NCBI RefSeq assembly: GCF_004005945.1
Contig: NZ_SACS01000016.1
Span: 1 to 64,000 of the forward strand
Direction: 5' to 3'
Origin: Rheinheimera riviphila
Lineage (GTDB): Bacteria; Pseudomonadota; Gammaproteobacteria; Enterobacterales; Alteromonadaceae
Length of the DNA: 64,000 bases
In this document: in pieces, positions 13,250-43,024 of the stretch
Position numbering within the stretch: the stretch's first letter is position 1
Layout: the number at the start of each line of letters is the position of its first letter
Translations under genes and position numbers: made by a program
Notes under the pieces: model-generated
What the model was told of the DNA's origin: nothing
The model's input: the letters and a program-made list of their open reading frames with translations, nothing else
Database searches by the model: none

Positions 13250-13267
13250 AATAAAATACCTTTGGAA

Positions 13268-13942: not shown

Positions 13943-14027
13943 AGGTTTGCCTCTTGGTTTTGATGTGGACGAAAGTCGGCGCGCATTGTACTGCAATCAT
14001 TCAGTAATAAAAATGACATTTTCCAGC

Positions 14028-14815: not shown

Positions 14816-14852
14816 GGACTCCTATTAAACCTTATGTCGGTGGCTGCTTCAA

Positions 14853-15659: not shown

Positions 15660-15733
15660 TGTTTCATTCACTCTTTCAAATTTAATCCGGGTTGCAGTGG
15701 CGCCCGCAGGCGCCGGTGGCATCAAAGCTCAGC

Positions 15734-17395: not shown

Positions 17396-17410
17396 CGTCA
17401 TGACTCCAAC

Positions 17411-19723: not shown

Positions 19724-19862
19724 TGGTGCACATCCACGACTGACTTTTCGGATAGTGCAAAGCATAGATGAGTTTTATTTCAGAAATATTACAATGAAGT
19801 TTTTTGTCACAATACGGTCATATAGACATTGAGCTACTCAGAAAAGAATAGCGGCAATTTGA

Positions 19863-19935
19863 CACTAGCCAAAACAGCTAAAGCACCGCGCAGGCAGTGC
19901 TTTGGCATATGCTGCAGCCAGACACTGCAGCAAAA
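19863..19935 (-). other. pstS-pstC intercistronic hairpins
   Basis: Two stem-loops in the minus-strand transcript after pstS: TGCTGCAG/CTGCAGCA (19910-19932), and AAAGCAC...GTGCTTT nearer pstC (about 19880-19903). The second is followed by a short GTTTTGGC run, a weak terminator at best. Such structures usually protect or attenuate mRNA so that the binding protein is made in excess over the permeases. Confidence 0.5.
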
Positions 19936-19946
19936 GTGGTTCGACG

Positions 19947-20927
19947 TTATTTGATACCTAAGTCAGCCAAAACTTTGGCAGCAACTTTGTTCGGCACTGG
20001 TACATAACCATCACGGACCACTACTTCCTGACCACGTTTTGACAACACCATTTTGATGAACTCACGCTCCATTGGCGCTAACTCTTTATTTGGATGTTTG
20101 TTGACATAAACGTACAGAAAGCGCGACAGCGGGTATGCACCTGATAAAGCGTTTTCAGCAGAAGCTTCGATAAATGGTGCACCTTCTTTTTTCGATAACG
20201 GCAGCGCACGCACACCTGAAGTGATGTAACCGATACCAGAATAACCGATACCATTAATCGATTCACTCACGCCTTGTACCACTGAAGCAGAACCAGGCTG
20301 TTCGTTGATACTGGCTTTAAAGTCACCGTTACATAAGGCGTGTTCTTTAAAGTAACCATAAGTACCAGAGACTGCGTTGCGGCTGTAAGTGGTGAAATCA
20401 CGATTGGCCCAGGCACCGGTTAAACCCAGCTGACCCCAGCGGGTGACATCTTCTTTATAACCACAACGGCGGGTCGCAGAAAACACGGCGTCGACCTGGG
20501 CAATGGTTAAACCTTTTAACGGGTTATCTTTATTGATATACACCGCCAGTAAGTCAATCGCGACTGGCACTGCAGTTGGCTTATAGCCATATTTTGTTTC
20601 AAACGCCTGAACTTCTGATGGCTTCATTGCACGGCTCATCGGGCCAAAGTTTGAAGTACCTTCAGTCAGCGCTGTTGGCGCCGTGGAAGAACCTGCGCCC
20701 TGGATCTGAATATTCACGTTTGGATACACTTTACGATAATCTTCAGCCCACAGCGTCATCAGGTTGTTTAAAGTGTCTGAACCGATGCTGGAGATATTGC
20801 CTGAAACACCGCTCGCTTTCTGATATTCAGGCAGCGCCGGGTCAACCTTGGCTGGTGCGGCAGTGGTGCTGAACGACAAAGTCGCGGCAACCAAAGTTGC
20901 GGTAGTTAACAGAGTAAAATTTTTCAC
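19947..20927 (-). CDS. pstS: Periplasmic phosphate-binding protein PstS
   Basis: 326 residues with a cleavable signal peptide (first ~23 residues, ending FSTTAAPA). Phosphate-contact motifs typical of PstS are seen: [25 protein letters not shown] and [16 protein letters not shown]. It captures phosphate in the periplasm for PstCAB. It is the first gene of the operon and has a clear Pho box and -10 upstream. Confidence 0.95.
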
Positions 20928-21814: not shown

Positions 21815-21847
21815 AAGCCTTCATCCACAAAGATCATTGGTTTGTCT

Positions 21848-23965
21848 ATGAATGCACAACTACCGACAGTGAACGAATTGCATTATTTCCCTAAAGAACT
21901 GAGTTGGTTAGCTTTTAACGAGCGGGTATTGCAGGAAGCCGCGGACGAGCGCAATCCCTTGATCGAACGCCTGCGTTTTCTGGGTATTTACTCCAACAAT
22001 ATGGATGAGTTTTATCGGGTACGGGTGGCTGATGTGAAGCGACGTATCCTGCTGAAAAAATACCATTCCGAAGAAGAAGACGCCGAAGAGCTGATGTTAA
22101 AAATTCAGCGTAACGTGCTGAAATTAGGTGATAAATTCAATGGCATCTACTTGGAGTTATTGCTCGAACTGCGCAAGCACAACATTGAATTTATCGACCA
22201 TCACAAACTGAATGAATCGCAGTCGGCCTGGATCCGCACCTACTTTCGGGAGCGGGTACTGCGGCATATCTCGCCGATTTTATTATCGAATGAAGATCTG
22301 CATTTATCCAAACGTCTTGAAGACAACGCCACCTACCTGATGGTAGAAATGACCGGTACCAACAAAGCCGAATATGCCATTGTGCAGGTGCCGACCGACG
22401 AAGTGTCGCGGTTTATCGAACTGCCGCTGTACTTAAATAAAACCAAAAAACGCGGCCGTTATCGCCATCAGTTTATGATGCTGGATGATTTAATCATTCA
22501 TTGTCTGCATGACCTTTTCCGCGGCTTTTTTGAGTTTTGCGACATTCAGGCTTTTTCGCTGAAATTAACCAAAGATGCCGAATATAACTTAAGCGACACC
22601 CTGGATCAGAGCTTGCTCGACAAGATGTCCAAAGGCATCCGCCAACGGTTGGAATCAGAGCCGGTGCGGCTGGTGTACGATGCGACGATGCCAGAGCATA
22701 TGCTGAAAATTCTGAAAAAACAGCTCGGCGCCAGTTCGCTGGATTCGCTCATTCCTGGCAGCCGCTACCGCAATTTTAAAGACTTTATCAGCTTCCCGAA
22801 TATCGGCCACGCCAGCCTGGAATATCCGTCACTACCGCCGCTGCCCAGTCCGGATTTTGAACAACATACCACCACTTTTGATGCCATTCGCAGTAACGAT
22901 GTGCTGCTGCACTACCCTTATCACAACTTTACCTATTTCACTGAATGGGTACGGCAAGCGTCATTTGACCCGAAAGTTAGCTCGATCAAAATGACCATGT
23001 ATCGCGTCGCGAAAAACTCACGGGTGATCCAGTCGTTGCTGGATGCGGTGCGCAACGGCAAAAAAGTGACAGTGGTGGTTGAGCTCAAAGCGCGTTTTGA
23101 CGAAGAAAATAATATCCACTGGGCGAGGAGAATGACCCAGGCCGGTATTCAGGTGGTATTTGGCCTGACTACCTTAAAAATTCACTCAAAGTTATGTTTG
23201 ATCACCCGTCAGGAAAAAGGCAAAGCGGTGAAATACGCCCATATCGGCACCGGTAATTTTAATGAAAAAACTGCGCGCATTTACACCGATATGAGCTTGT
23301 TCACCTGCCACGATGAAATTTGTGATGAAGTAGACCAGGTGTTCGAGTTTATTGAATACAGCTATAAACCTTTTAAATTTAACCACTTAATTGTATCGCC
23401 CACCTGGAGTCGAGCCAAGTTAACCGCGCTTATTCAGCGGGAAATGGATTTTGCCACCAGCGGCCGCAATGCGGAAATTTTGCTCAAAATCAACAACCTG
23501 GTGGATAACGAAATTGTTGATTTGCTCTACAAAGCCAGTCAGGCCGGGGTGAAGATCCGCATTATCGTGCGTGGCATGTGTTCGCTTATTCCGGGAGTCG
23601 CGGGGAAAAGTAAGAATATTCAGGTGATTAGCGTGCTCGACCGCTATCTGGAACACGCGCGGGTTTATCAGTTCCTGAACGGTGGCGACATCGACTTGTA
23701 CTTATCTTCTGCCGACTGGATGACCCGCAATATTGATCAGCGGGTCGAAGTTGGCGTGCCGATTTACGATGCCAAAATCAAACAGCAAATTATGACGGTA
23801 CTGGATTTGCAATGGCACGATAACGTGAAAGCCCGTATCATTGACGCTCAGCAGCAAAATAACTACGTCAAACGTGGTAACAAAAAGAGTATCCGCTCGC
23901 AGCAGGCCATCTACGATTATCTGGCAGGCCAGCATTTTGGTCCGACTATTCAGGCAGAACAATGA
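21848..23965 (+). CDS. ppk1: Polyphosphate kinase 1
   Basis: About 705 residues, a full-length PPK1. It has the N-terminal ELSWLAFNERVLQEA and NMDEFYRVRVADVKRR segments, the catalytic region with HSKLCLI (~residue 440) and HIGTGNFNEKTARIYTD (the phosphorylated-His motif region), and a C-terminal second phospholipase-D-like domain (LNGGDIDLYLSSADWMTRN). It polymerises the gamma-phosphate of ATP into polyphosphate, reversibly. ATG 21848 is preferred to the in-frame TTG at 21842. Its end overlaps the ppx start by 4 bp (ATGA), implying translational coupling. A likely Pho box lies upstream. Confidence 0.96.
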   Translation: MNAQLPTVNELHYFPKELSWLAFNERVLQEAADERNPLIERLRFLGIYSNNMDEFYRVRVADVKRRILLKKYHSEEEDAEELMLKIQRNVLKLGDKFNGIYLELLLELRKHNIEFIDHHKLNESQSAWIRTYFRERVLRHISPILLSNEDLHLSKRLEDNATYLMVEMTGTNKAEYAIVQVPTDEVSRFIELPLYLNKTKKRGRYRHQFMMLDDLIIHCLHDLFRGFFEFCDIQAFSLKLTKDAEYNLSDTLDQSLLDKMSKGIRQRLESEPVRLVYDATMPEHMLKILKKQLGASSLDSLIPGSRYRNFKDFISFPNIGHASLEYPSLPPLPSPDFEQHTTTFDAIRSNDVLLHYPYHNFTYFTEWVRQASFDPKVSSIKMTMYRVAKNSRVIQSLLDAVRNGKKVTVVVELKARFDEENNIHWARRMTQAGIQVVFGLTTLKIHSKLCLITRQEKGKAVKYAHIGTGNFNEKTARIYTDMSLFTCHDEICDEVDQVFEFIEYSYKPFKFNHLIVSPTWSRAKLTALIQREMDFATSGRNAEILLKINNLVDNEIVDLLYKASQAGVKIRIIVRGMCSLIPGVAGKSKNIQVISVLDRYLEHARVYQFLNGGDIDLYLSSADWMTRNIDQRVEVGVPIYDAKIKQQIMTVLDLQWHDNVKARIIDAQQQNNYVKRGNKKSIRSQQAIYDYLAGQHFGPTIQAEQ

Positions 23966-25527
23966 CCCATTTAACTCCTATTGCAAGCTCGGCCAGTGCC
24001 AGCGCGGCCGACGCCATTCCGGCCGCCGAACTGATTGCGGCCGTTGATTTAGGCTCCAACAGTTTCCACCTGGTGATCGCCAGAATTGTGGATGGTGCCT
24101 TGCAGTTGTTGCACCGGGAGAAGCAAAAAGTCCAGTTAGCCGACGGCCTCGACGATCAACAAATGCTTAGCGATGAAGCAATGGCGCGTGGCCTGAACGT
24201 GTTGGCGCAATTTGCCGATACGCTCAAAGGTGTACCACCTTCTGCAGTGCGGGTGATTGCCACTTACACCTTGCGCCGGGCGAAAAACGCCAATAGTTTT
24301 TTGCACAAAGCCAAAACCGTCTTTCCCTTTCCGATTGAAGTGATTTCAGGTCAGGAAGAAGCGCGCTTTATTTATCAGGGCGTGGCCCATTTTGAGCACT
24401 ACGCCGATCAACGGCTGGTGATGGATATTGGTGGTGGCAGTACCGAATTTGCCATCGGCATCGACTTTCAGCCACTGAAATTAGCCAGCCGTAATATGGG
24501 CTGTGTCAGTTATGCCAAGCAGTTTTTTGCCCGCGGTAAAATCAGCGACAAACGCTTTGAGCGTGCGGTATTACAGGCCGAGCAGGAACTGGAAAATATC
24601 GTCAATGCCTATCGCAGCACTGGCTGGCAACAGGCGGTTGGCACTTCCGGCACCATTAAAACTATCAAAGATATTGTCACCGGTTTTGGCTGGCATCCGC
24701 ACTGTATCGAGCTGGAACATTTATTAAAAATCAAAGAATTAGTGCTAACCGTTGACAGCTGTGAGCTGCTGGATTTACCAGGCCTGACCGACGATCGTAA
24801 GCTGTTACTGGCACCCGGTTTAGCTATTTTGATTGCCGCCTTTCAAATGCTTGGCATCGAGCAAATGGTCTATGTCGATGCTGCGCTACGCGAAGGTGTG
24901 CTGTATGAAATGAGCGACCGGCTGCAACATCAGGATATTAAAAGCCATACTATCCAGAGTCTGGTAAAACGTTATGCCGTTGATGTCGCTCAGGCGAGAC
25001 GGGTGCAGACCACGGCACTGGAGATTTTTAGTCAGGTGCAAGAACGCTGGCAACTTCACGACAACTGGCAGCAGTTATTGTCGTTTGCCTCAGCGGTGTT
25101 CGAAATTGGCCTGCAAATTAACTCGTCCAGCGTGCAAAGGCACAGTGCCTATATTCTGTATAACGCCAACCTGCCGGGGTTTAATCAGGAACAACAGCAA
25201 CTGCTTGGCTGCCTGGTGCGTTTTCACCGCCGGAAAATTAAGCCGGAAGATTTCCCTGATTTTTACCTCTATACCGCACAGGATTTATGTTACGCCCTGG
25301 TGATTTTCCGCTTGGCGATTTTACTCAATCAAAAACGCCGCGACGATATGCTGCCGCAACTACAACTGACCGCCAGCGATCATGCCCTGCAATTGCAATT
25401 ACCCGAGCATTGGACTGAACAACAAACGGTGCTGGTGGCCGACCTCATCACGGAACAACAATTTCTGAAGCGGATTGATTTCACTCTGGAATGTCCGGGA
25501 GTGCCCAAGGACGTCATCGAAGATTAA
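23962..25527 (+). CDS. ppx: Exopolyphosphatase
   Basis: 521-residue Ppx/GppA phosphatase of the sugar-kinase/actin fold: AAVDLGSNSFHLVIAR (phosphate-1 loop, ~residues 27-42), ISGQEEARFIY (catalytic Glu region) and VMDIGGGSTEFAIG (phosphate-2 loop). A C-terminal helical half of HD-like appearance follows. It releases phosphate from the ends of polyphosphate, opposing the upstream kinase. The start overlaps ppk1. The first ~25 residues are Ala/Ser-rich and not conserved. GppA is the paralogue alternative; the operon with ppk1 favours Ppx. Confidence 0.94.
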   Translation: MTHLTPIASSASASAADAIPAAELIAAVDLGSNSFHLVIARIVDGALQLLHREKQKVQLADGLDDQQMLSDEAMARGLNVLAQFADTLKGVPPSAVRVIATYTLRRAKNANSFLHKAKTVFPFPIEVISGQEEARFIYQGVAHFEHYADQRLVMDIGGGSTEFAIGIDFQPLKLASRNMGCVSYAKQFFARGKISDKRFERAVLQAEQELENIVNAYRSTGWQQAVGTSGTIKTIKDIVTGFGWHPHCIELEHLLKIKELVLTVDSCELLDLPGLTDDRKLLLAPGLAILIAAFQMLGIEQMVYVDAALREGVLYEMSDRLQHQDIKSHTIQSLVKRYAVDVAQARRVQTTALEIFSQVQERWQLHDNWQQLLSFASAVFEIGLQINSSSVQRHSAYILYNANLPGFNQEQQQLLGCLVRFHRRKIKPEDFPDFYLYTAQDLCYALVIFRLAILLNQKRRDDMLPQLQLTASDHALQLQLPEHWTEQQTVLVADLITEQQFLKRIDFTLECPGVPKDVIED

Positions 25528-28923: not shown

Positions 28924-29979
28924 CTATCTGGCAGCTGCCAGCAGTTCTTGGCGGATAATTTCAGCGCCGGCATTCAGTGCAACGAGCTTATCTCGGGCCA
29001 CCTGGCGGGATAACGGCGCCATCCCGCAGTTGGTGCAAGGATAAAGCTTGTCGGCATCGACAAACTGCAGCGCTTTTCGCAGGGTCGCGGCTACGTCTTC
29101 CGGGGTTTCAATGATATTGCTGGCCACATCAATGGCCCCAACCATGATTTTTTTACCCCGGACCAGTTCCAGCAATTCCATCGGCACCTGCGAGTTATGA
29201 CATTCTAACGAAATAATATCGATGGCGGATTTTTGCAGTTTCGGGAACACTGCTTCATATTGCCGCCACTCAGAGCCCAGCGTTTTTTTCCACTCGGTAT
29301 TGGCTTTGATGCCGTAGCCATAACAAATATGTACCGCCGTTTCGCATTTCAGACCTTCAATAGCGCGCTCTAAGGTTGCGATGCCCCAATCATTCACTTC
29401 ATCAAAAAACACATTAAAAGCCGGCTCATCAAACTGAATGATATCGACCCCGGCGGCTTCTAGTTCTTTAGCTTCCTGATTAAGGATGATGGCAAATTCC
29501 CATGCCAGTTTTTCCCGGCTGTGATAATGATCGTCATACAGCGTATCGATCATCGTCATCGGACCTGGCAGCGCCCATTTAATCGGCTTGCTGGTTTGCT
29601 GGCGCAAAAACTTCGCATCTTCGACAAATACCGGTTTGGTTCTGGAAACAGGCCCCACCACCGTTGGCACACTGGCATCATAGCGATCACGAATGCGTAC
29701 CGTCTGGCGTTTGGTGAAGTCGACACCGCTTAAGTGTTCAATAAAAGTGGTGACAAAGTGCTGCCGGGTTTGCTCACCATCACTGACGATATCAATCCCC
29801 GCCAGTTGCTGTTCTTGCATGGCGATGCGTAACGCATCATTTTTGCCGTCGGTCAGTTCATCGCCTTGTAATTTCCACGGCGACCACAGGGTTTCGGGCT
29901 CTGCCAGCCATAACGGCTTGGGTAAACTGCCTGCAGTGGAGGTGGGTAATAGTTTTTTTGTCTTCGTATTCATCATCAT
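28924..29979 (-). CDS. mesD: Folate-independent core methionine synthase, MesD type
   Basis: 351 residues corresponding only to the catalytic C-terminal half of MetE. Zinc-site features are visible: the His and Cys in AVHICYGYG, the ECHNSQ segment and CTNCGMAPLSR near the end. The N-terminal, folate-holding half of full MetE is absent. Short MetE proteins encoded beside DUF1852 are known from Acinetobacter and others as MesD, which methylates homocysteine without methyltetrahydrofolate, needs the DUF1852 partner MesX, and was reported to depend on oxygen. The DUF1852 gene precedes it here by 69 bp, supporting that assignment. Three consecutive ATG codons (29979-29971) make the exact start uncertain. 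Confidence 0.88.
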   Translation of the reverse strand: MMMNTKTKKLLPTSTAGSLPKPLWLAEPETLWSPWKLQGDELTDGKNDALRIAMQEQQLAGIDIVSDGEQTRQHFVTTFIEHLSGVDFTKRQTVRIRDRYDASVPTVVGPVSRTKPVFVEDAKFLRQQTSKPIKWALPGPMTMIDTLYDDHYHSREKLAWEFAIILNQEAKELEAAGVDIIQFDEPAFNVFFDEVNDWGIATLERAIEGLKCETAVHICYGYGIKANTEWKKTLGSEWRQYEAVFPKLQKSAIDIISLECHNSQVPMELLELVRGKKIMVGAIDVASNIIETPEDVAATLRKALQFVDADKLYPCTNCGMAPLSRQVARDKLVALNAGAEIIRQELLAAAR

Positions 29980-30048
29980 ACCGCGCTGAATTTTAATAGA
30001 TTGTTGTACGGATTCTTGTCTGGATTCTTGTATGAACTGTTACTTGAA

Positions 30049-31026
30049 TTAGCGGGCGAAATTGGCCGACCACTGCTCAAGAAAGCTCTGGTAAGGCTTG
30101 ATAAATTGCTCCTCGGCAAACTTACCCTGCTGCATCGCCAGCTTGCTGCGCTCTTCCCGGTCATACACAATTTTGGTCAGTGAATGTTGCTGACTTTTTA
30201 AATCAGGTTGGTAGCGCAGCCCTGCCACGGCGTGGGCATTATAAATTTCTGGCCGGTAGATCTTTTGAAAGGTTTCCATGGTGCTGATGGTGCTGATGAG
30301 CTCCAGATTGCTGTAATCATTCAGCAAATCGCCAAAGAAATTAAAAGCCAAGGGCGCGACACAACTCTCCGGCATGAAATAACGCACCTGTAAGCCCATT
30401 TTCTTAAAATACTGCTCGGTCAACGACGACTCATTCGGCAGATATTCAAACCCAAGCACCGGATGATGATTGGCTGAGCGCTGATAAATTTTGTTATCGG
30501 ACACACTGAGGCAGATCACCGGCGGTTTTTTGAAGTTGTTTTTGTAGGCTGCTGAGTTGACGAAATGTTGGAATAACTGGCCATGCAGCTCACCAAAATT
30601 AGCCGGAATGCTAAATTGTGGCTGATTTTTGTTGTGTTCCAATAGCAACACGCTGAAATCGTAATCCCGGACATAAGAAGAAAAGTTATTGCCGACCACG
30701 CCGTCAAACCGCTCCTGGGTATGCTGATCCAGGATGCTGGTTTTCAGGATCTCAATCGACGGAAAGGCGTTGCCGGCGTTCTCGATATTGATATCCACCG
30801 ACACGATTTCCAGCTCAACCGCATAGCGATCGCCTGCCGGATTGTCCCAATGCGCCAGCGAGTTAAAACGATTGTTAATCATTTTTAAGGTATTACGCAG
30901 ATTCTGCTGCCGACTGTCGCCGCGCGCCAAATTAGCAAAGTTGGTGGTCATCCGCGTTTTGTCTGACGGCGAATAATGCTCATCAAAACAAATACTTTTA
31001 ATCGAAAATGTAAAATCTTTATGCAT
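30049..31026 (-). CDS. mesX: DUF1852 protein, MesX partner of MesD
   Basis: About 325 residues. It matches DUF1852 by its FTFSIKSICFDEHYSPSD start and the conserved RGDSRQQNLRNTLKMINNRFN, GNNFSSYVRDYDFSVLLLEHN and AGLRYQPDLKSQQHSLT segments. MesX is required for MesD-dependent methionine synthesis and may help supply the unknown methyl donor; its reaction is not established. ATG 31026 follows GGGGAGTGG and is preferred over an upstream ATG at 31101 that would add a hydrophobic leader without a ribosome site. mesX and mesD form a two-gene operon. Confidence 0.88.
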   Translation of the reverse strand: MHKDFTFSIKSICFDEHYSPSDKTRMTTNFANLARGDSRQQNLRNTLKMINNRFNSLAHWDNPAGDRYAVELEIVSVDINIENAGNAFPSIEILKTSILDQHTQERFDGVVGNNFSSYVRDYDFSVLLLEHNKNQPQFSIPANFGELHGQLFQHFVNSAAYKNNFKKPPVICLSVSDNKIYQRSANHHPVLGFEYLPNESSLTEQYFKKMGLQVRYFMPESCVAPLAFNFFGDLLNDYSNLELISTISTMETFQKIYRPEIYNAHAVAGLRYQPDLKSQQHSLTKIVYDREERSKLAMQQGKFAEEQFIKPYQSFLEQWSANFAR

Positions 31027-31100
31027 GGTGATCCACTCCCCAATGATTTGCGACAAACTTGAAGCCAGAGACAAACAGAAGGCTATACGTCTAAATGCCA

Positions 31101-31144
31101 CTTCTTAAGAAGCTTTATACGCGGATGGGGAAATGAACAAAAAC
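31101..31144 (-). promoter_or_regulatory. Possible mesXD promoter with palindromic operator
   Basis: On the minus strand TTGTTC is followed after 15 bp by TATAAA (31121-31116). A perfect 12-bp palindrome CTTCTTAAGAAG (31101-31112) sits just downstream of the -10, where a repressor could bind. The 15-bp spacer is short, so this is tentative. Confidence 0.35.
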
Positions 31145-31245: not shown

Positions 31246-32583
31246 TTATTTCTTACGCGGTAATTTCGGTTGATGTAGTGTTTGGACACCCACCACTAGC
31301 TCTGGCGGCAAACTAAAGGAAAAACTGCTGCCACGTTTTGGCTCGCTGAAAATCATCAGCTTACTGTGATGGCGTGACAATACGTGTTTGACGATGGCAA
31401 GCCCGAGGCCGGTACCACCGCTGCTGCGGGTGCGGGCTTCGTCGACGCGGTAGAATCTTTCAGTTAAGCGTTTGACGTGGTGCGGCGCGATGCCTTCGCC
31501 ATTATCGGTCACCGAAAACAACGCTTTTTGATGCTGTCGTTGCCAGCACACCTGAATTTCACCGCCCGGTGGCGTGTATTTAATCGCATTGGTAATGAGG
31601 TTAGAAAAAGCACTGCGTAGCTCTTCTGTCATGCCGGTGACCCGCAAATTGGGATCAACCTGAAACTGCAACTGATGCTGTTTTTCGCGATTTAAACTAA
31701 TGGCTTCCTGCTCCAGCAAATGCAGCATCGCCGGCACGTCGACCACCGCATCAAACTGCACTTTGGCTGCCGCTTCAATCCTGGACAAGGTCAATAGCTG
31801 TTGCACCAGTGCGTCCATCCGCTTGGTTTGCTCCAGCATCACGGTATGGGCTTTTTGCCAGATCGGCGGCGCTGGCATATTGTCAACATCCATCACTTCC
31901 AGGTAACCCTGCAATACCGTCAGCGGCGTCCGTAGTTCATGCGACACGTTGGCGACAAAGTCTTTGCGGATTTGCTCTAACTGCTTGATTTGGGTGATAT
32001 CGCGGATGATCAGCAGATATTGCTTCTCGCCATATTGCAGCACGCGGTATTCCAGCGTCACTTCATCGGACAGCGGTGACACGAGTTCAAGTGCGCTATC
32101 AAACTGTTTTTGTTGCAAAAATTGCTGGAATTCAGGGTTACGAATGAGGTTATCAATGCGCTGATGTTCATCCATCGGCCAGCGTAAACCAGCCAGTTGC
32201 TGCGCCAGTTTATTGCACCAGATGATCGACCAGTCGGACGTGAGCACAATAATGGCGTCAGGCAAGGCTTCGGCGCCATCGCGAAACCGACGCACTAATA
32301 CACGTAACTCTTTGTTTTTCTTGCGAGACTTACGCTGCCGGTAATAAATGCCGTCAAACACCTGTTGCCAGCTGCCATCACCGGCTGGCGGCGACAATTT
32401 GCGATCGCGCCACAACCAATTATCCAGCATAAACAAATGTTTGTAATGCCAGCCGACCAACACCATCTGGTAAACCAGCAAAAATTCCAGCGTCAGATCA
32501 AACAACCAGCCCAGTAAACCGACCACCAACGCAATCGATACCAATCGGACCAGAATGGCCTGTTTCGAAAGTAATAACCGCAT
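31246..32583 (-). CDS. phoR: Phosphate regulon sensor histidine kinase PhoR
   Basis: About 445 residues: N-terminal membrane segments (~residues 10-50), a linker, a PAS domain (~95-195, DAIIVLTSDWSIIWCNKLAQ), HisKA with FVANVSHELRTPLTVLQGY (phosphorylated His) and HATPase_c with NAIKYTPPGGE, DNGEGIAP and GGTGLGLAIVKHVL. No large periplasmic sensor domain is present, as expected for PhoR, which reads phosphate status through Pst and PhoU. ATG 32583 follows AGCAGG; the frame extends to 32628 without a ribosome site. It lies 51 bp downstream of phoB. Confidence 0.95.
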   Translation of the reverse strand: MRLLLSKQAILVRLVSIALVVGLLGWLFDLTLEFLLVYQMVLVGWHYKHLFMLDNWLWRDRKLSPPAGDGSWQQVFDGIYYRQRKSRKKNKELRVLVRRFRDGAEALPDAIIVLTSDWSIIWCNKLAQQLAGLRWPMDEHQRIDNLIRNPEFQQFLQQKQFDSALELVSPLSDEVTLEYRVLQYGEKQYLLIIRDITQIKQLEQIRKDFVANVSHELRTPLTVLQGYLEVMDVDNMPAPPIWQKAHTVMLEQTKRMDALVQQLLTLSRIEAAAKVQFDAVVDVPAMLHLLEQEAISLNREKQHQLQFQVDPNLRVTGMTEELRSAFSNLITNAIKYTPPGGEIQVCWQRQHQKALFSVTDNGEGIAPHHVKRLTERFYRVDEARTRSSGGTGLGLAIVKHVLSRHHSKLMIFSEPKRGSSFSFSLPPELVVGVQTLHQPKLPRKK

Positions 32584-32634
32584 AATACCTGCTGAAAATA
32601 GGTTTGGGCTTTGGCAAAAGCGCCACAACGGCGG

Positions 32635-33321
32635 TTATTTTACCGAAAAACGGTAGCCAGAACCACGTACAGTTTGCACTAACCGGTCATGACCTGCGAC
32701 CGAAATTGCTTTACGTAACCGGCGGATATGCACATCGACCGTTCGGTCTTCGACATACACATTGGTACCCCAAACATGGTCCAGCAACTGCTCACGGCTG
32801 TACACCCGCTCCGGATGGGTCATAAAGAAGTGTAATAACCGGAATTCGGTCGGTCCCATATCAAGAGGACTGTCTGAAGCAGTGACGCGGTGCGACACCG
32901 GATCCAGTTTTAAGCCTTGTACATCAATCACTTCGTCTAAGCTGGTTGGTGCAACCCGGCGGATCACCGCTTTGATGCGTGCCATCAGCTCTTTTGGTGA
33001 AAACGGCTTGGTGACGTAATCGTCCGCGCCCACTTCCAGGCCCCGTACTTTATCTTCTTCTTCACCGCGGGCGGTGATCATAATAATCGGGATGTTGCGG
33101 GTCAGCTCGTGTTGCTTCATTTTTTTGGCAATTTGAATACCACTGCCACCAGGCAGCATCCAGTCCAGTAACACTAAATCCGGGTACGGTTCTACCAGCT
33201 GATTAATCGCCGCATCAAAGTCACCGGCCACGCTGGCCTGATAACCATTTTGTTCCAGCACAAAGCACAACATATCGCGAATTGGTGCTTCATCTTCCAC
33301 AATCAAAATTCTTCTCGACAT
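32635..33321 (-). CDS. phoB: Phosphate regulon response regulator PhoB
   Basis: 228 residues: a receiver domain with the acidic pair EDEAP, phospho-acceptor Asp in [13 protein letters not shown] and the conserved Lys in [13 protein letters not shown]; then an OmpR-type winged helix (~130-228) ending [11 protein letters not shown]...VRGSGYRFS. It binds Pho boxes to activate phosphate-starvation genes. A Pho box upstream indicates autoactivation. Confidence 0.96.
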
Positions 33322-33356: not shown

Positions 33357-33390
33357 AGTATCCATGGCTATTATGACAATTTTATGAAAA
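33357..33390 (-). promoter_or_regulatory. PhoB box and -10 of phoBR
   Basis: Minus strand TTCATAAAATTGTCATAAT: two half-sites 11 bp apart (33388-33372), with GATACT (33362-33357) about 10 bp downstream. Autoregulation of phoBR through such a box is the rule in Gammaproteobacteria. Confidence 0.7.
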
Positions 33391-33557: not shown

Positions 33558-33613
33558 CTGTCATCTGAACGTCGATTTTCTGTCATATAACAGTCACACC
33601 TCTCTTCTATCGT
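33558..33613 (+). promoter_or_regulatory. Tandem PhoB boxes and -10 before the duplicated lipoprotein gene
   Basis: CTGTCATATAACAGTCAC (33580-33597) is an almost perfect Pho box. A weaker copy beginning CTGTCATCTGAACGTCG starts at 33558, exactly 22 bp (two repeats) upstream. TATCGT (33608-33613) lies 10 bp after the strong box. The divergent gap 33322-33656 thus carries PhoB sites facing both phoBR and this gene. Confidence 0.8.
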
Positions 33614-33656
33614 CTGCACAGTTTTCGATAACCCACAGCTTTAGACGGAGAACGTA

Positions 33657-36347
33657 ATGGCTTTTGGTAAGATTTTAAAATTAAGCGCGATGGCAACAGC
33701 AATGATGCTGGCTGGTTGTGGCGGTGGTGACATCGTATTAAATACCGGTGCTGGCGCAAACCCAACCAATCCAACGACACCTACCACCCCACCAGTCACT
33801 TCAGTGTGCCCGACCTTTGCAAAACAAGGTGCCAGCTTAGGTGGTGTGTCTAAACCCATTTGTGAAATTACCGGCACTTTAACAGCAGACGCTACCTTAA
33901 CCGCCAATATCGCCTGGGCGTTAAGCGGTAAAGTAACAGTCGGTAACGATAACGCGCAAAGCGCAGTGTTAAATATCGAAGCCGGCACCACAGTGTTTGG
34001 TAAATCTGGTGCTGATTATCTGGTGATTGCCCGTGGCTCACAAATTCGCGCCGTTGGTACCAGCGCCAGCCCAATCGTCTTTACTTCTGTTAACGACATG
34101 ATTGGTTCAGTGACTGAAGATTCTGCCGCGCAATGGGGTGGTATCGTGTTACTGGGTAAAGCGCCAAGTAACAAGTGCGATCAAGCAGCACTGGCTGGTT
34201 GTAAAATTGAAGCTGAAGGTAACGCCGGCCCTTACGGTGGCGACAAACCAGAAGATAACAGCGGTATTTTAAAATTCGTGCAGGTGAAATACGCCGGTTA
34301 CGAAGTTATTACTGACAACGAATTAAACGGTATCACTTTCGCCGGTGTTGGTTCAGGCACTGTGGTTGACTACATTCAGGTTCACAACAACCTGGACGAT
34401 GGCGTGGAATTCTTCGGCGGTACGGTCAATGCCAAACACGTGGTATTAACCGGCAACCGCGACGACTCATTAGACTGGGCTGATGGTTGGACCGGTAAAA
34501 TGCAGCATGTGCTGATCCAGCACAGCAAAAATGACTCCAAAGCCAACCGCGGTATTGAAGCTGACAACCAGTCTTCAAACTTCTCGGCGACGCCAGTCAG
34601 TAAACCAAAAATCTCTAACATGACCATCCTTGGCAATAACTACAAATCAGCCGACGCTGACTCTGAAGGTATTTTGCTGCGCGCTGGCTCTGCTGGTGAA
34701 ATTTATAACAGTATCGTCAAAGGCCCGGCGGGCATGGGCGAATGTCTGGAAATCGAAACTGAGCAATCGGTACAGCAATCACAAAACGGTGGTTTGCTGA
34801 TGCGTAACTCAATCATCGACTGTAAAGAGCCGTTCAAAAACCCGAAAGATGCTGCCGGTAATACCTTACTGGACGTGAAAGCCTGGTTCCTGGCACAAAC
34901 TGGTAACAAAGCAACCGACGCCCTGCTTGGCGGTTATATGCCAGCCAGCACGTCACCAGCGCTGAAAAACGGTTACAACGTGTCGAACTTTGTTGATTCA
35001 TGGTTTGACGATGTCGATTACATCGGTGCTTTTGATGGTGTGTCTGATTGGACCAAGGGCTGGACTTTTGGCCTGCACCCGGCATCTGTGATCGCAGCTT
35101 GCCCGGCTGGTACGTCAGAAGTGGCATCGTTAACCGGCAAACTGAACTGTGAACTGAAAGGCGACATCACCAGCAATGTGACATTACTTGCCGGTGCGGA
35201 TTACGTGTTAAACGGCCGCGTGCGTATTGGTGTGGATAACACCACAGCGGCCACCTTAACAGTACAACCTGGTGTAACGGTTTATGGTCGTTCAGGTGCT
35301 GACTTCTTAGTGGTAACCCGCGGCTCAAAAATGAATGCTGAAGGTACTCAGCAAAGCCCAATCACGTTCACTTCACTGCAAGACGTGATTGGCGCGCCGA
35401 CGGCTGCCGGTCAGTGGGGCGGCATGGTGTTACTGGGTAAAGCACCAAGCAACAAGTGCGACCAGGCCAATCTGGCCGCTTGTAAAATCGAAGCCGAAGG
35501 CAACGCCGGTCCATACGGTGGCGCTGATGCAGCGGATAACTCTGGCGTGCTGAAGTACGTGCGAGTGAAACACGCCGGCTTCGAAGTACTGCAGGATAAC
35601 GAACTGAACGGCATCACTTTTGCTGGTGTTGGTTCAGGCACCACCGTCAGCCACATTCAGGTGCACCAGAACCTGGATGACGGTATCGAGTTCTTCGGTG
35701 GTACGGTGAACGTGAAATACGTGGTGCTGACCAGCAACGGTGATGACTATGTCGACTGGGCTGACGGCTGGAACGGTAAAGCACAATACATCCTGGCCAA
35801 ACACGGCAAGGACAATAGCGAAGCGAACCGCGGCATCGAAGGTGACAACCAGTCATCAAACTTCTCTGCCACACCAATCTCGAACCCGACTATCGCCAAC
35901 ATGACGATTATCGGTAACAGCTACAAATCGGCTGAAAAAGACTCTGAAGGCGTGTTGTTACGCGCGGGTTCAAACGGTCAGCTGCATAACTTCCTGATCA
36001 CCGGCCCAACCGGTATGGGTGAATGTCTGGAAATCGAAACCACGCAGTCTCAGGCATTAGCTGCTGCCGGTTCGTTAGTGATGACGCACTCAGTGATTGG
36101 CTGCCCGGAACCGTTTAAAGGTTCAGTCTCTGCAACAACCACTTTAAAACAATGGTTTGAAGCGCAGACCGGCAACAAAACAGCGGTAGACCAGGCGGCA
36201 GTGATCAACGGTATCTTCACCATCGATACCACCACACCAAAAGATATGTCCACTGTGAACAGCTTCTTCAGCAAACCAACCACTGTTGGTGCTGTTGATG
36301 CGGCCAGCGACTGGACCAAAGGCTGGACTGTTGGTTTAACCCAATAA
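33657..36347 (+). CDS. PhoB-controlled lipoprotein with two tandem beta-helix-like domains
   Basis: 896 residues with a lipoprotein signal (MMLAGCGGGD, lipidated Cys ~22) and a Thr/Pro linker (residues ~33-48). Two homologous domains follow, at about 50-480 and 481-896. Each contains in order a GADYLV/GADFLV segment, QWGGIVLLGKAPSNKCDQA, KIEAEGNAGPYGG, DNELNGITFAGVGSGT, QVHNNLDDGVEFFGGTVN, ANRGIEADNQSSNFSATP and MGECLEIET. The short repeating beta segments suggest a right-handed parallel beta-helix. No catalytic motif is recognised. The gene has the strongest Pho box in the window and is followed by a TonB-dependent receptor gene, so a surface role in capturing or processing a phosphorus source is likely but inferred. 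GGAG precedes ATG 33657. Confidence 0.8.
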   Translation: MAFGKILKLSAMATAMMLAGCGGGDIVLNTGAGANPTNPTTPTTPPVTSVCPTFAKQGASLGGVSKPICEITGTLTADATLTANIAWALSGKVTVGNDNAQSAVLNIEAGTTVFGKSGADYLVIARGSQIRAVGTSASPIVFTSVNDMIGSVTEDSAAQWGGIVLLGKAPSNKCDQAALAGCKIEAEGNAGPYGGDKPEDNSGILKFVQVKYAGYEVITDNELNGITFAGVGSGTVVDYIQVHNNLDDGVEFFGGTVNAKHVVLTGNRDDSLDWADGWTGKMQHVLIQHSKNDSKANRGIEADNQSSNFSATPVSKPKISNMTILGNNYKSADADSEGILLRAGSAGEIYNSIVKGPAGMGECLEIETEQSVQQSQNGGLLMRNSIIDCKEPFKNPKDAAGNTLLDVKAWFLAQTGNKATDALLGGYMPASTSPALKNGYNVSNFVDSWFDDVDYIGAFDGVSDWTKGWTFGLHPASVIAACPAGTSEVASLTGKLNCELKGDITSNVTLLAGADYVLNGRVRIGVDNTTAATLTVQPGVTVYGRSGADFLVVTRGSKMNAEGTQQSPITFTSLQDVIGAPTAAGQWGGMVLLGKAPSNKCDQANLAACKIEAEGNAGPYGGADAADNSGVLKYVRVKHAGFEVLQDNELNGITFAGVGSGTTVSHIQVHQNLDDGIEFFGGTVNVKYVVLTSNGDDYVDWADGWNGKAQYILAKHGKDNSEANRGIEGDNQSSNFSATPISNPTIANMTIIGNSYKSAEKDSEGVLLRAGSNGQLHNFLITGPTGMGECLEIETTQSQALAAAGSLVMTHSVIGCPEPFKGSVSATTTLKQWFEAQTGNKTAVDQAAVINGIFTIDTTTPKDMSTVNSFFSKPTTVGAVDAASDWTKGWTVGLTQ

Positions 36348-36355
36348 CCTGCCCT

Positions 36356-36389
36356 GCCGCCGGCCTCACTAGCCGGCGGCAATTTTTTA
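36356..36389 (+). terminator. Terminator between the lipoprotein and TonB-receptor genes
   Basis: Perfect 9-bp stem GCCGCCGGC/GCCGGCGGC with a 7-nt loop and a T6 run. Read-through would be needed for the receptor gene to share the Pho promoter. Confidence 0.85.
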
Positions 36390-36490
36390 TATAAGAAACA
36401 ACAAGTCACGTATGTACCCGCTGTAGTTATTGCCAAAGATGCAACAGCCGCAGCCAAAGCAGATCAGCAAGAGCACAGGAATTAGTCACA

Positions 36491-39166
36491 ATGAGCAGCA
36501 AGCAAAGTTTTGTATATAGTCGCGTGAACCGTGGTGTGCTTTTGGCGTTAGCCACCAGCGCTGCCGTAGCCTTCATGCCCGCCTCTGCCCAAGAAACGTC
36601 GGCCGCAGCGCCAGATGCAGCAATTGCTGAACAAGTTGAACGGATCAGTGTATCCGGCAGATTATTAAGCTCCGCTGCAGCCACAGCCGAAGAGCGCCGT
36701 CAGCAACCATATGTTGCTGAATTACTTGGTATTGAACAGATTTCCCGCGCCGGTGACAGCAATGCCGCTGCCGCCCTGCGCCGAGTCACTGGCCTGACGC
36801 TGGTGAAAGATAAATTTATCTACGTCCGTGGTCTGGGTGAACGTTATTCTTCAACCTTATTAAACGGCGCCCAGGTGCCAAGCCCGGATCCAACCCGGAA
36901 CGTGGTGCCACTGGACATGTTCCCGGCCGGCATTATCGAAAGTATGGTGGTGCAAAAAGCCTTTTCGCCGGAACTGCCAGCCGCCTTTGGTGGTGGTAAC
37001 GTCAATATCCGCACCGTCAGTATTCCACGTGAAGAAATCTTCAACTTCTCAGTGGGTGTTGGTTACAACAGCTTAAGCAGTGACGACGGTCTGGATTACC
37101 GCGGTGGCGGCGACGACTGGCGTGGTAAAGATGATGGCACCCGTGGTTTATCCACCGGTATTCAGGATGCGCTAAATAAATACGGCTCGCTCGATGTGGT
37201 GAAAATTGCTCAGGGCCTCGGCGGTATCACGCCTGCAAATTTAGTGGCGGCTGAAAAAATCAACCGCAACTTAGGTCTGGAACTGAACCGTGATTTAGAC
37301 ATCAACAATAAAAGCATCGGCCCTGAGTACGATACCAGCCTGTCTTACGGCAACCGTTTTGACATCGGCAGCACGGTATTTGGTGTGATGGCGGGTGTCA
37401 GCTACGACAAATCATCTGAAAACTTCAAAGAGCAGGAACGGTATTACTCCATCAGCTCTGGCACCGAACTGACGCCGCTCAATCGTTATGATGACATTCG
37501 CGGTACCGAGCATCAGGTGAAAATGTCTGGCATGCTGAACTTCGGTTTGGAGTTTGACAGTAACCACCGCATTGAAACTTCGAGCATTTATTTAAGCGAC
37601 ACCAAAGATGAGATCAAAATCAAAATTGGTGACTCGATTGAAACCATCAACGAAGCGCTGCGTGAAAACGAAGATTATTCGATTTTGTACGAAGAACGCA
37701 GCATGTTGACCAACCAGATCCGCGGTCGCCACACGCTCGACTTTTTAAATGACTTAGCGCTGGACTGGCAATACACCGACGCGAAAGCTGAGCGGAACGC
37801 GCCAAGCGAAGTCGAATATCGGTATGTGCGTCAGCTGGCCGAAGATGGCAGTTTACTCAACCGCACCATGCGCCGCAGCGACAACGCCGCCATTTACCAG
37901 TTTGGTCAGCTCGAAGACAACACTGAAAACGTTAGCTGGAATGCCAAGTACCCAATGACGATCGGCTCAACCGAATACGCGTTCAGCACCGGTTACGCTT
38001 ACTTCGAACGGCAGCGTAACGCCGGTACCAACCGCTTTAAGCTGGATACCCGTGGTTTTAGCAACGAAGAGTTAAGTCAGTCATTTTCAAACATTTTCTC
38101 CGATGCCAATATCAGCAACCCAGCCAAACGCTTTTTGCTGTCTGACGTGACGGCGCAAGCTGATGATTACGTGGCAGCGCAGCAGGTTGATGCCGCTTAT
38201 GTCGGCGTCGAAGCGACTTACGACATGACCTGGCGGGTGAACGCTGGTTTACGCTACGAAGATTTCCGCCAGATTTCAGTGCCGTTAAACCCAGCCACTG
38301 GCGAAATTCAAGGCAATGTTGCTGATTTCCCACGTCAGGAAGACGATCTGTACCCTGCCCTTGCCGTGACCTGGATGCAGTCGGAAGAAACCCAATATCG
38401 CTTCGGTTTTAGCGAAACTGTGGTGCGTCCGGACTTACGGGAAGTGACACCGGTGCTGTTTATTGATCCTATCACCGACTTTAAAGTGATTGGTTTTTCG
38501 GATTTGAAAAGCACCAGCATCAGCGCCTACGACCTGCGTTGGGAGCAATATCTGGACAGCGGCAGTAACTACAGTCTGGGTCTGTTCTATAAAGACTTAA
38601 CCAACCCGATTGAAGCCGTTGAACTCAAAGGCTCTGACGGTAACTTGCTGATGTCATTCAGAAATGCCATCGGCGGTGAAGTATACGGTGTCGAAGCTGA
38701 AGCGTTACAAAAACTGGATATGTTTGAAGGTGATTTTGGCCAGATGCTGGACAACTTCTTTGTGGTCAGTAACTTCACTTACAGCGAATCAGAAATTGAA
38801 ATCGAATCACTGGGTGAAACTAACCTGACCAACTTAGTAAGGCCGTTAACTGGTCACTCGAAATACGTGGTCAACTTCCAATTAGGTTTTGACTCGGACA
38901 ACGAAGACCATACCGCCACTTTAACTTACAACGTGTTCGGCAAACGCATCGCCTTCGCCGGTATCGACGGCAAAGACGACGCCTACGAGCAACCATTCAA
39001 CTCGCTGGACTTCGTCTACTCGTACAACGTATTTACCGATGGTTCGTTGAAATTCTCGGCGAAAAACATCCTGAACCGCGACATCGAAATTTTGCAACAA
39101 GGCGAAATTCTGCAAATGCGCGAGCAAGGGGTCAGCGTTGGCTTGAGTTTTAGCCAGAAGTTCTAA
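36491..39166 (+). CDS. TonB-dependent outer-membrane receptor
   Basis: 891 residues. A signal peptide (~residues 1-33, ending MPASAQE) is followed by a TonB-box-like EQVERISVSG, and a plug domain (~60-185) with LGIEQISRAGDSNAAAALRR, YVRGLGERYSSTLLNGAQVP and the PAAFGGGNVNIRT segment. A long beta-barrel ends in an aromatic C terminus (GVSLSFSQKF). Receptors of this kind actively import ligands too large or scarce for porins. The ligand is unknown; position next to phoBR and behind a PhoB-controlled lipoprotein points to a phosphorus-containing substrate. No own Pho box is seen in the 143-bp gap after the lipoprotein gene. Confidence 0.9.
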   Translation: MSSKQSFVYSRVNRGVLLALATSAAVAFMPASAQETSAAAPDAAIAEQVERISVSGRLLSSAAATAEERRQQPYVAELLGIEQISRAGDSNAAAALRRVTGLTLVKDKFIYVRGLGERYSSTLLNGAQVPSPDPTRNVVPLDMFPAGIIESMVVQKAFSPELPAAFGGGNVNIRTVSIPREEIFNFSVGVGYNSLSSDDGLDYRGGGDDWRGKDDGTRGLSTGIQDALNKYGSLDVVKIAQGLGGITPANLVAAEKINRNLGLELNRDLDINNKSIGPEYDTSLSYGNRFDIGSTVFGVMAGVSYDKSSENFKEQERYYSISSGTELTPLNRYDDIRGTEHQVKMSGMLNFGLEFDSNHRIETSSIYLSDTKDEIKIKIGDSIETINEALRENEDYSILYEERSMLTNQIRGRHTLDFLNDLALDWQYTDAKAERNAPSEVEYRYVRQLAEDGSLLNRTMRRSDNAAIYQFGQLEDNTENVSWNAKYPMTIGSTEYAFSTGYAYFERQRNAGTNRFKLDTRGFSNEELSQSFSNIFSDANISNPAKRFLLSDVTAQADDYVAAQQVDAAYVGVEATYDMTWRVNAGLRYEDFRQISVPLNPATGEIQGNVADFPRQEDDLYPALAVTWMQSEETQYRFGFSETVVRPDLREVTPVLFIDPITDFKVIGFSDLKSTSISAYDLRWEQYLDSGSNYSLGLFYKDLTNPIEAVELKGSDGNLLMSFRNAIGGEVYGVEAEALQKLDMFEGDFGQMLDNFFVVSNFTYSESEIEIESLGETNLTNLVRPLTGHSKYVVNFQLGFDSDNEDHTATLTYNVFGKRIAFAGIDGKDDAYEQPFNSLDFVYSYNVFTDGSLKFSAKNILNRDIEILQQGEILQMREQGVSVGLSFSQKF

Positions 39167-41893: not shown

Positions 41894-42802
41894 TTAAAAT
41901 TTATGTTCAATACCAATCGCCAGATAATCAGTATCAACTTTGTTATCAAAATCGAAGCTGCTGTACCAGGCGAATAACTTGGTGTCTTTGCCAATTTTAT
42001 AATCGGTACCAAAGCTAAAACCTTTGTGCTCTTCCAACGTCTGGTATTGAGCCTTTAACTCATATTTATCAAGTGGATAAGATAAGTTTGCTAACCAACC
42101 GTCTTCTTTTTTACCGGTCGCAACCGCTTCCTGCTGCACCAAACCGGCGCCCACTTTCAGCTGACCAAGCACTTTTACCTGACCCGTGACTCGCGTCGCA
42201 TCGTAGCCATTGACTTCGTTGTCCATCGCCACCGAGGCAAACAGCTTTGATTCTTTTAACGCGTCATCGCCGTACAACAGCGCAAACGACTGACCATCTT
42301 TGCCTTCCGGTGTGTCTTCCATAATATGGCTGACTAGCAGCGAAAAACCCTGAAACGAAGGGCTGATGTAGGCCAGCGAATTATTCATCCGGTTCTCGCC
42401 TTTCCACAACGTCTTGATATCTGCTTCGTAATCGTTAAATAAATCGACTTTACCCTGAGATAATTTCAGCGCGGTATCGTTGCGACCGGCTTTAATGGTA
42501 CCGAAGCTGCCTTTTAACCCGATGAACTGGTCGCGGCCTTTGATATTTTTCTCGTTAGCGTCGTCTGTCAGATCAACTTCCCATTCCAGCTGATACACCA
42601 ACGACAACTCACCATCCAGCTCATAATCGCCTTTAATGCCGAACCGCGAAGCGTTGCTTTTTAACTCACTGAAAGAACCGGCACCTTCGTCGGAGCTTTG
42701 TGCCGTCACATTAATTTTACCGTAGACCGTCAGCGGATCTGCCTGCAGCGGTAAGGCAACAGTCATGAACATAGCCAAAAGCAGAGTTTTCTTTGCAAAC
42801 AT
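41894..42802 (-). CDS. Gram-negative porin, probably phosphate-starvation induced
   Basis: 302 residues: a signal peptide (~residues 1-21, ending LPLQA) and then a 16-strand-type general porin of the Porin_4/OmpC-like class. It starts PLTVYGKINVTAQ, has FGIKGDYELDGELSLVYQLE and FGTIKAGRNDTALKL, and ends in a terminal Phe (LAIGIEHKF). Two Pho-box promoters precede it, so it is a plausible functional counterpart of PhoE or OprP for anion uptake under phosphate limitation. The channel selectivity itself cannot be read from the sequence. Confidence 0.88.
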   Translation of the reverse strand: MFAKKTLLLAMFMTVALPLQADPLTVYGKINVTAQSSDEGAGSFSELKSNASRFGIKGDYELDGELSLVYQLEWEVDLTDDANEKNIKGRDQFIGLKGSFGTIKAGRNDTALKLSQGKVDLFNDYEADIKTLWKGENRMNNSLAYISPSFQGFSLLVSHIMEDTPEGKDGQSFALLYGDDALKESKLFASVAMDNEVNGYDATRVTGQVKVLGQLKVGAGLVQQEAVATGKKEDGWLANLSYPLDKYELKAQYQTLEEHKGFSFGTDYKIGKDTKLFAWYSSFDFDNKVDTDYLAIGIEHKF

Positions 42803-42924: not shown

Positions 42925-43024
42925 CACATATCACAGCTTTATGACCGGATAATGTCTTCAGTATTACTTTGTCGTTGCAGTTGGAAGGCTATTTTATGGC
43001 TTTTATATGACAAGATTATGACAG
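42925..43024 (-). promoter_or_regulatory. Tandem PhoB-box promoters of the porin gene
   Basis: Distal: CTGTCATAATCTTGTCAT (43024-43007) matches the Pho consensus at about 15 of 18 positions, with TAAAAT (42996-42991) 10 bp downstream. Proximal: a weaker box ending GGTCAT (about 42957-42940), with TATGTG (42930-42925) 10 bp downstream. They would give 5' leaders of about 185 and 115 nt. The rest of the 42803-43138 gap shows nothing further. Confidence 0.7.

Follow-up and report, generated by a model that had tools for sequence, protein, structure and literature searches.

The 64,000-nt stretch of Rheinheimera riviphila contig NZ_SACS01000016.1 analysed here (the window; all coordinates are positions in it) carries a lipoprotein gene followed by a TonB-dependent receptor gene, and raises the question of what this pair does for the cell. 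An earlier note on this DNA had claimed an 896-residue lipoprotein and an 891-residue TonB receptor, divergent from phoBR, and the open reading frames (ORFs) and the Pfam, TIGR02154 and NF008235 matches bear it out. We are highly confident that the two genes form an ElpS-type, PhoB-controlled lipoprotein/receptor pair. That the pair captures and imports a phosphorus-containing ligand is, in our estimate, an evenly balanced proposition.

The earlier note recognised no described function for this lipoprotein family, a claim that does not hold, because its homologues are ElpS of Caulobacter and, through ElpS, FI, FII and FIII of Flavobacterium. ElpS (CC_0170) of Caulobacter crescentus was shown by others to be a starvation-induced, surface-anchored lipoprotein of ≈50 kDa with LAGC at residues 17-20 (PMC2996285), and induction of elpS (CCNA_00169) to be PhoB-dependent (PMC5172544). 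Le Blastier et al. 2010 reported that elpS is followed by the receptor gene cc0171 and then by type II secretion system (T2SS) genes, and had already noted ElpS homologues in Shewanella and Bacteroides and their co-occurrence with receptors (PMC2996285). The PhoB regulon includes the T2SS and various TonB receptors (PMC11208175). Homology was judged through stand-ins, namely L150 from the Caulobacter-like genome G513 and the named Brevundimonas loci L116, L117 and L119, rather than CC_0170 itself. The L150 lipoprotein of 518 aa agrees with published ElpS in its LAGC at residues 17-20 and its 51.7 kDa when mature, and its locus has the order lipoprotein, receptor, gspD, gspE; the GANTC spacing upstream of its gene differs from the Caulobacter promoter positions in PMC5172544, so that L150 is taken as a relative and not as the locus of strain NA1000. 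The L150 domain is 35% identical to domain 2 of the window lipoprotein (E 3e-61), and its receptor is 29% identical to the window receptor (E 9e-86). This likeness in both lipoprotein and receptor implies that the window pair is an ElpS-type pair.

We scored Pho boxes against a pattern that we take to be the Pho consensus. The array CTGTCAT-N4-ACGTCGA-N4-CTGTCAT-N4-CAGTCAC matches 22 of 28 consensus positions and is the top four-half-site match on both strands of the window, compared to at most 20 in 30 simulated first-order Markov sequences of 64 kb each. The tandem boxes and correctly spaced -10 element described in the earlier note thus stand as the best array in the window, with TATCGT 10 bp after it, but only the proximal box is near-perfect (12/14), the distal pair being weaker (10/14). 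We aligned 20 upstream regions from the genus, counting that of the window; the proximal box CTGT[CA]A[TC]-N4-[CA]AGTCA and the -10 block TA[TC][CG][GT]T are kept in 20/20 by eye, and the distal CTGTCAT/ATGTCAT half is recognisable, again by eye, in only 8/20. The proposed PhoB control of the lipoprotein gene is therefore supported by sequence. A box-like block with TGAC and TATGAAA on the phoB side is likewise kept across the 20 regions, and autoregulation of phoBR is possible. When a two-half-site pattern was used, the array (2 mismatches) was beaten by a box at 43007-43024 (1 mismatch), the best such match in the window. This box and another at 42930-42947 (- strand, 2 mismatches) lie upstream of a gene for a Porin_4 family porin (41894-42802, - strand), which, judging by these boxes, is likely also under PhoB control.

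Relatives were collected by a domain-alignment scan of genome contigs with at least 552 confirmed, of which the best 80 were kept (the named loci); the ranking used a Sphingomonas protein as reference, and the sample therefore leans to sphingomonads. The named locus nearest to the window is L133, from an Arsukibacterium metagenome-assembled genome, with 70% identity over the whole protein. A same-strand receptor gene adjoins the lipoprotein gene in 74 of the 80 named loci (71 downstream, 3 upstream), so that the co-occurrence which the earlier note had wanted checked across Alteromonadales extends well beyond them. Of the six loci that miss a receptor, four (L086, L121, L131, L139) run out within 750 bases on the downstream side; at L141 and L146 none is present despite room on at least one side. 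Pho boxes with up to 3 mismatches in the 350 bases before an ORF were found for 40/77 lipoprotein ORFs, 39 of these 40 on the sense strand, compared to 3/74 receptor ORFs and 70/869 other ORFs of 250 aa or more. The counts omit ORFs lying too close to a contig end, and a split gene enters them as two ORFs. The enrichment before lipoprotein over other ORFs corresponds to an odds ratio of 12 and a Fisher p of 2e-20, an optimistic value given the non-independence of related loci. In Xanthomonas arboricola pv. guizotiae (L111, 7530-9275), the lipoprotein gene appears as two ORFs.

The domain was matched at E 1e-5 in 36 of 60 genomes searched, the window's genome included: 22/22 in the genus, 12/14 in other genera of the family and 2/24 in other families of the order. 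One genus match (G020) has only 37% identity and lies at a contig end. phoB is divergent beside the lipoprotein gene in 20 of 21 genus loci; the remaining one (L019) begins ≈150 bases before the gene. Among 20 larger regions from the same search, lipoprotein and receptor genes are adjacent in 18; of the other two, L048 is at a contig end and L050 holds a distant homologue. phoBR, pstS or ExbB/ExbD/TonB genes are clustered with the pair in several Alteromonadales: the order in other genera can be phoB-phoR-(pstS)-(oxygenase)-lipoprotein-receptor, and some Alteromonas and Pseudoalteromonas relatives have the pair flanked by a DUF3450-ExbB-ExbB-ExbD(-TonB) module. Plasmid pBGP9 of Alteromonas macleodii (L003) carries phoB-phoR-pstS-oxygenase-lipoprotein-receptor-DUF3450-ExbB-ExbB-ExbD-TonB, with a three-domain lipoprotein of 1356 aa. 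More widely, the domain occurs in 21 of 249 evenly sampled Pseudomonadota genomes (own genome included) and in 153 of the 284 genomes that are ≥95% complete in the family that contains G513, which is probably Caulobacteraceae. We also scanned 87 of 106 candidate genes beside the pair at the named loci (19 were left out, mostly <190 aa), where candidates exclude recognised T2SS, Pho and Exb genes, those >700 aa and those containing masked letters. Among the 25 of 75 families listed, none that recurs is a phosphatase, a nuclease or a phytase.

The two lipoprotein domains claimed in the earlier note are 58% identical over 427 columns (E 1e-174), and the beta-helix is supported by modelling. The window lipoprotein has no Pfam or NCBIfam family above cut-off and no Pfam match under E 0.02. 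Scans of 71 domains (two from the window and 69 of 108 domain stretches) gave sporadic matches only, each in 1-2 members (Beta_helix in 2, best E 4e-4), and in PDB sequence searches with the window protein and with the 71-row profile no hit had an E below 0.8. An AlphaFold2 model of domain 2 (35064-36344) built from the 71 sequences reached a predicted local distance difference test score (pLDDT) of 94.9 and a predicted template-modelling score (pTM) of 0.94, and the domain is accordingly predicted to be a right-handed beta-helix. The full-length model has two confident domains (pLDDT 88.2) of uncertain mutual placement (pTM 0.58) and low confidence for residues 1-49.

Eight positions are acidic in 71/71 domains: E145 and the clustered D205, D206, E209, D227, D228, D231 and E259 (domain-2 numbering), in which the two DD pairs are 22 residues apart. 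The corresponding seven residues of domain 1 (see table) are invariant in a 26-row alignment of two-domain proteins, and 9 diverse members likewise share all of them except E301. None of the Lys, Arg and His columns is fully conserved in the 71 domains (best R86, 94%, and H201, 86%), and six Cys columns are kept in 83-96%. GHG, which with R-I-K we take to be a catalytic signature of polygalacturonases (GH28), is found in 0/71 domains, R-[IVL]-K in 2/71 and N[TS]DG in 3/71, and membership of the polygalacturonases was rejected for want of these signatures. The invariant acidic positions and the absent GHG suggest that the cluster would serve to bind a cation, and not as a catalytic site of the kind found in known glycan hydrolases. 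At the N terminus, a recurrent motif follows the lipidated Cys (CGADDIASPG-like in many Alphaproteobacteria, CGGDININ-like in several Gammaproteobacteria) and could be a surface-export signal.

Relatives have one to three domains per protein. In a FastTree phylogeny of the 71 domains, with three-copy proteins represented by two copies each, copies from the same protein or small clade fall together at about twelve separate points of the tree (support: window/L133/L138/L132, 0.61; L122/L125/L126, 0.99; Shewanella L144/L147, 1.0; L134 with L145, 1.0; L143 and L129, 0.99 each; L124/L130, 1.0; L135, L127 and L136, ≥0.995; L100, 0.71; L104/L115, 1.0). This grouping implies either repeated independent duplication or concerted evolution within genes. 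We found no description of domain duplication in the literature on ElpS-type proteins, although no search was aimed at duplication alone.

A terminator-like hairpin lies between the two window genes. It has a 10-bp stem with 9 G-C pairs, an ATTTTTT tail and a folding z of -3.6; the region scanned holds 13 terminator-like sites, compared to a shuffle mean of 7.2. Hairpins at gene ends are common. Among lipoprotein-receptor intergenic regions, which the survey covered, a hairpin just 3' of the lipoprotein stop has z below -2 in 34/36 sequences (30/32 without four duplicates), the misses being L041 and L026. The hairpin recurs across genera while its sequence varies. Many of the relatives' hairpins have no long T run and so resemble attenuators or stability elements more than complete terminators. 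Because the hairpin parts the two window genes, expression of the receptor may depend on the Pho promoter only partially.

From this evidence we propose that, at low phosphate, PhoB would bind upstream of the lipoprotein gene and turn it on strongly, and that, because of the hairpin between the genes, the downstream receptor would be turned on less strongly or separately. A flexible tether would hold the lipoprotein in the outer membrane, facing outward, and the seven-residue acidic cluster of each beta-helix domain would most likely bind a divalent cation. A phosphorus ligand might be captured via this cation, or via the helix face beside it, and be handed to the cognate receptor for TonB-energised import, supplying periplasmic phosphatases and PstSCAB. 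Binding and import of a phosphorus compound are plausible from the pairing and the Pho control, and capture and import of phosphorus-containing molecules may well be the job of the ElpS family.

Several points weigh against phosphorus import. Phosphate binds an acidic site only with a bridging cation. At the threshold used, 37/77 lipoprotein upstream regions have no Pho box. The window receptor scores 218 bits against TIGR01782, under the cut-off of 310, and TIGR01782-type receptors are a class that serves many nutrients. At L047 and L049, single-domain relatives with a receptor have secDF-like genes as neighbours, and neither phoBR nor pstS was recognised in the 16 kb; from these loci the ElpS-type family may serve other nutrients too. 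Moreover, annotated Bacteroidota plasmid loci of the family show no visible Pho link. Finally, Cc0171 is reported to be constitutive, unlike elpS (data not shown there), and deletion of elpS is reported to have left phosphatase activity unchanged in Caulobacter (PMC2996285). Constitutive Cc0171, and a possible excess of lipoprotein over receptor, fit the hairpin and the scarcity of Pho boxes before receptor genes.

Of the other explanations, the one that survives best, which we nevertheless think unlikely, follows the proposal made for ElpS: the lipoprotein would assist or activate secreted phosphatases, with the receptor in a supporting or separate role. Overproduction of ElpS raised alkaline phosphatase activity in the supernatant, and purified or immunoprecipitated ElpS showed none (PMC2996285). 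The genes gspC/gspD are present in 25/80 named loci with a score limit applied (28 without), including Brevundimonas L116 and L117 and Xanthomonas L111. However, a count this low implies that T2SS adjacency is not a feature of the whole family, and the receptor is a far more constant neighbour. The unchanged phosphatase activity of the elpS deletion also argues against this role. No T2SS gene adjoins the window pair, whose neighbours are phoBR and CorA/porin genes; gspD scores over cut-off in the window's genome, but on another contig (C92).

More doubtful is a beta-helix hydrolase or lyase that would free phosphorus-bearing pieces from polymers for the receptor to import. Its fold class would suit such an enzyme: weak matches include phage tailspikes, pectate lyase Pel9A, AlgE4 and polygalacturonases, the invariant acidic pairs are one 22-residue turn apart, and FI, FII and FIII were modelled on polygalacturonase (PMC8115612). 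Against this, Foldseek searches of PDB and viral models returned generic right-handed beta-helices only, with no match at E ≤1e-3. The best PDB match was a phage tailspike (E 1.4e-3, TM 0.26) and the best viral match had E 1.1e-3 and TM 0.41; TM-scores by query were 0.14-0.36 among the 50 PDB matches listed and at most 0.41 among the viral matches listed. The missing polygalacturonase signatures and the lack of an invariant Lys, Arg or His column also argue against catalysis.

It is very improbable that the receptor serves export, displaying or releasing the lipoprotein at the surface instead of importing a ligand. The TonB-receptor-like protein Oar of Myxococcus reportedly acts in secretion, and the near-constant pairing is consistent with such a role, as is the finding of ElpS and FI outside the cell (PMC2996285, PMC8115612), but deletion of cc0171 is reported not to have stopped ElpS production (data not shown there; PMC2996285), and the ExbB/ExbD/TonB modules flanking some pairs are compatible with import too. 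Least probable of all is that the lipoprotein, produced on starvation, has a structural or adhesive function at the surface and takes no part in acquiring phosphorus. This reading would accommodate the variable domain number and the occurrence of beta-helix folds in adhesins, one of which, PfbA, is among the weak fold matches; the near-constant receptor partner and the Pho control speak against it.

Returning to import of a phosphorus ligand, we advance a broader version with considerable doubt: that the ElpS family is the capture half of a proteobacterial outer-membrane phosphorus importer, SusCD-like in working and not in fold, whose acidic stack would hold bridging divalent cations, whose domain has been repeatedly multiplied (one to three) for avidity, and whose Pro-rich tether would in some lineages be modified by a prolyl-4-hydroxylase-like enzyme. 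A 2-oxoglutarate-Fe(II) oxygenase is encoded in 17/80 named loci (L071-L082, L084, L093, L111, L118, L134), within 600 bases of the pair in 16 and ≈1.5 kb away in L084, and also in L003 and in L036 and L044 of two further genera. It is PF13640 in 8/8 scanned, and one is closest in PDB to prolyl 4-hydroxylases (E 8e-31). The gene lies upstream in line in Alteromonas, divergent in Xanthomonas and Steroidobacteraceae, and convergent downstream in Sphingomonas. Pho boxes (≤3 mismatches) precede 3/20 oxygenase genes, which is not clearly above the background of other ORFs. The window's genome has no oxygenase homologue at E 1e-10 (6/36 genomes of that search have one), so the enzyme is not part of the system here. 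A link between the oxygenase and more Pro-rich tethers was unsupported (mean 9.5 compared to 7.6 prolines per 50 residues, 17 and 54 loci, p 0.07; this leaves aside 9 loci in which no lipobox was recognised, and some starts are misplaced).

The features of the locus are collected in the table, together with the phosphate island that surrounds the pair. Beside phoR, 28924-31101 (- strand) encodes a MesX-family protein (PF08908) and a protein that reads as MetE-like from its sequence only.

Table. Positions of the lipoprotein/receptor pair, its control elements and the surrounding phosphate genes in the window.
Feature	Positions	Strand	Remarks
ElpS-family lipoprotein gene	33657-36347	+	896 aa, two beta-helix domains; mature 90.9 kDa
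Signal peptide and lipobox	33657-33719	+	LAGC, residues 18-21, Cys21; from sequence
Tether with Pro/Thr, predicted disordered	33720-33803	+	residues 22-49; pLDDT <50 for residues 1-49
Beta-helix domain 1	33804-35066	+	acidic residues D247 D248 E251 D269 D270 D273 E301
Beta-helix domain 2	35067-36344	+	acidic residues D674 D675 E678 D696 D697 D700 E728
Terminator-like hairpin between the genes	36355-36381	+	possible attenuator; from stem, tail and folding z
TonB-dependent receptor gene	36491-39166	+	891 aa, plug and barrel; PF07715 9.3e-9, PF00593 2.9e-21, both over cut-off
Pho box array	33558-33597	+	four half sites, 11-bp period; proximal box 33580-33597
-10-like hexamer	33608-33613	+	TATCGT, 10 bp past the array
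Pho box on phoB side	33373-33390	-	3 mismatches
phoB	32635-33321	-	TIGR02154 372 bits, cut-off 296
phoR	31246-32628	-	NF008235 568 bits, cut-off 390; TIGR02966 cut-off passed too
Pit and PhoU_div	11978-13996		phosphate island
phoU, pstB, two permeases, pstS	14102-20927		same island; pstS like a periplasmic binding protein
ppk	21842-23965		phosphate island
ppx	23962-25527		phosphate island

Phosphate limits growth in many waters. In a literature search made largely without subscription papers, no proteobacterial system for TonB-dependent uptake of phosphorus turned up that had been demonstrated to function. Many lineages have Pho boxes at the pair, and its domain has no matching Pfam or NCBIfam model above cut-off. 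New here are the count of receptor adjacency, the enrichment of Pho boxes before the lipoprotein gene, the recurrent hairpin, the variable domain number (one to three) with copies clustering within proteins in some twelve lineages, and the acidic cluster in 71 domains. A defined domain with invariant residues and a receptor makes the role of ElpS a directly testable question.

Compared with known systems, the lipoprotein domain shares the right-handed beta-helix fold class of polygalacturonases and pectate lyases, but differs in having no fold match at E 1e-3 or better and no catalytic signature. With SusCD/PusCD the pair shares a surface lipoprotein and a TonB-dependent receptor, which would work alike, but the window lipoprotein is a predicted beta-helix; the SusD-type Pfam families listed in PMC8115612 (PF07980/PF14322) match neither it nor any of the 71 domains. 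In Flavobacterium johnsoniae, FI, FII and FIII are phosphate-depletion-induced lipoproteins 31-36% identical to ElpS, FI being the most abundant exoprotein (18.7%), and the loci are termed PUSIII and PUSIV (PMC8115612). FII sits in a phoBR cluster with a TonB-dependent transporter (PMC8115612), like the window pair, but by locus number the transporter (Fjoh_0545) precedes FII (Fjoh_0546), whereas the window lipoprotein comes first; homology to FII runs only through ElpS. The closest parallel in domain, lipobox and order is ElpS/Cc0171: a homologous lipoprotein domain, an LAGC lipobox and a receptor directly downstream of the lipoprotein are common to both. PhoB control of the lipoprotein is experimental in Caulobacter and predicted from the conserved Pho box in the window. 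The two pairs differ in that the window lipoprotein has two domains and nearly twice the mature mass of one-domain ElpS, and in that the window pair lies beside phoBR and the Caulobacter pair beside T2SS genes.

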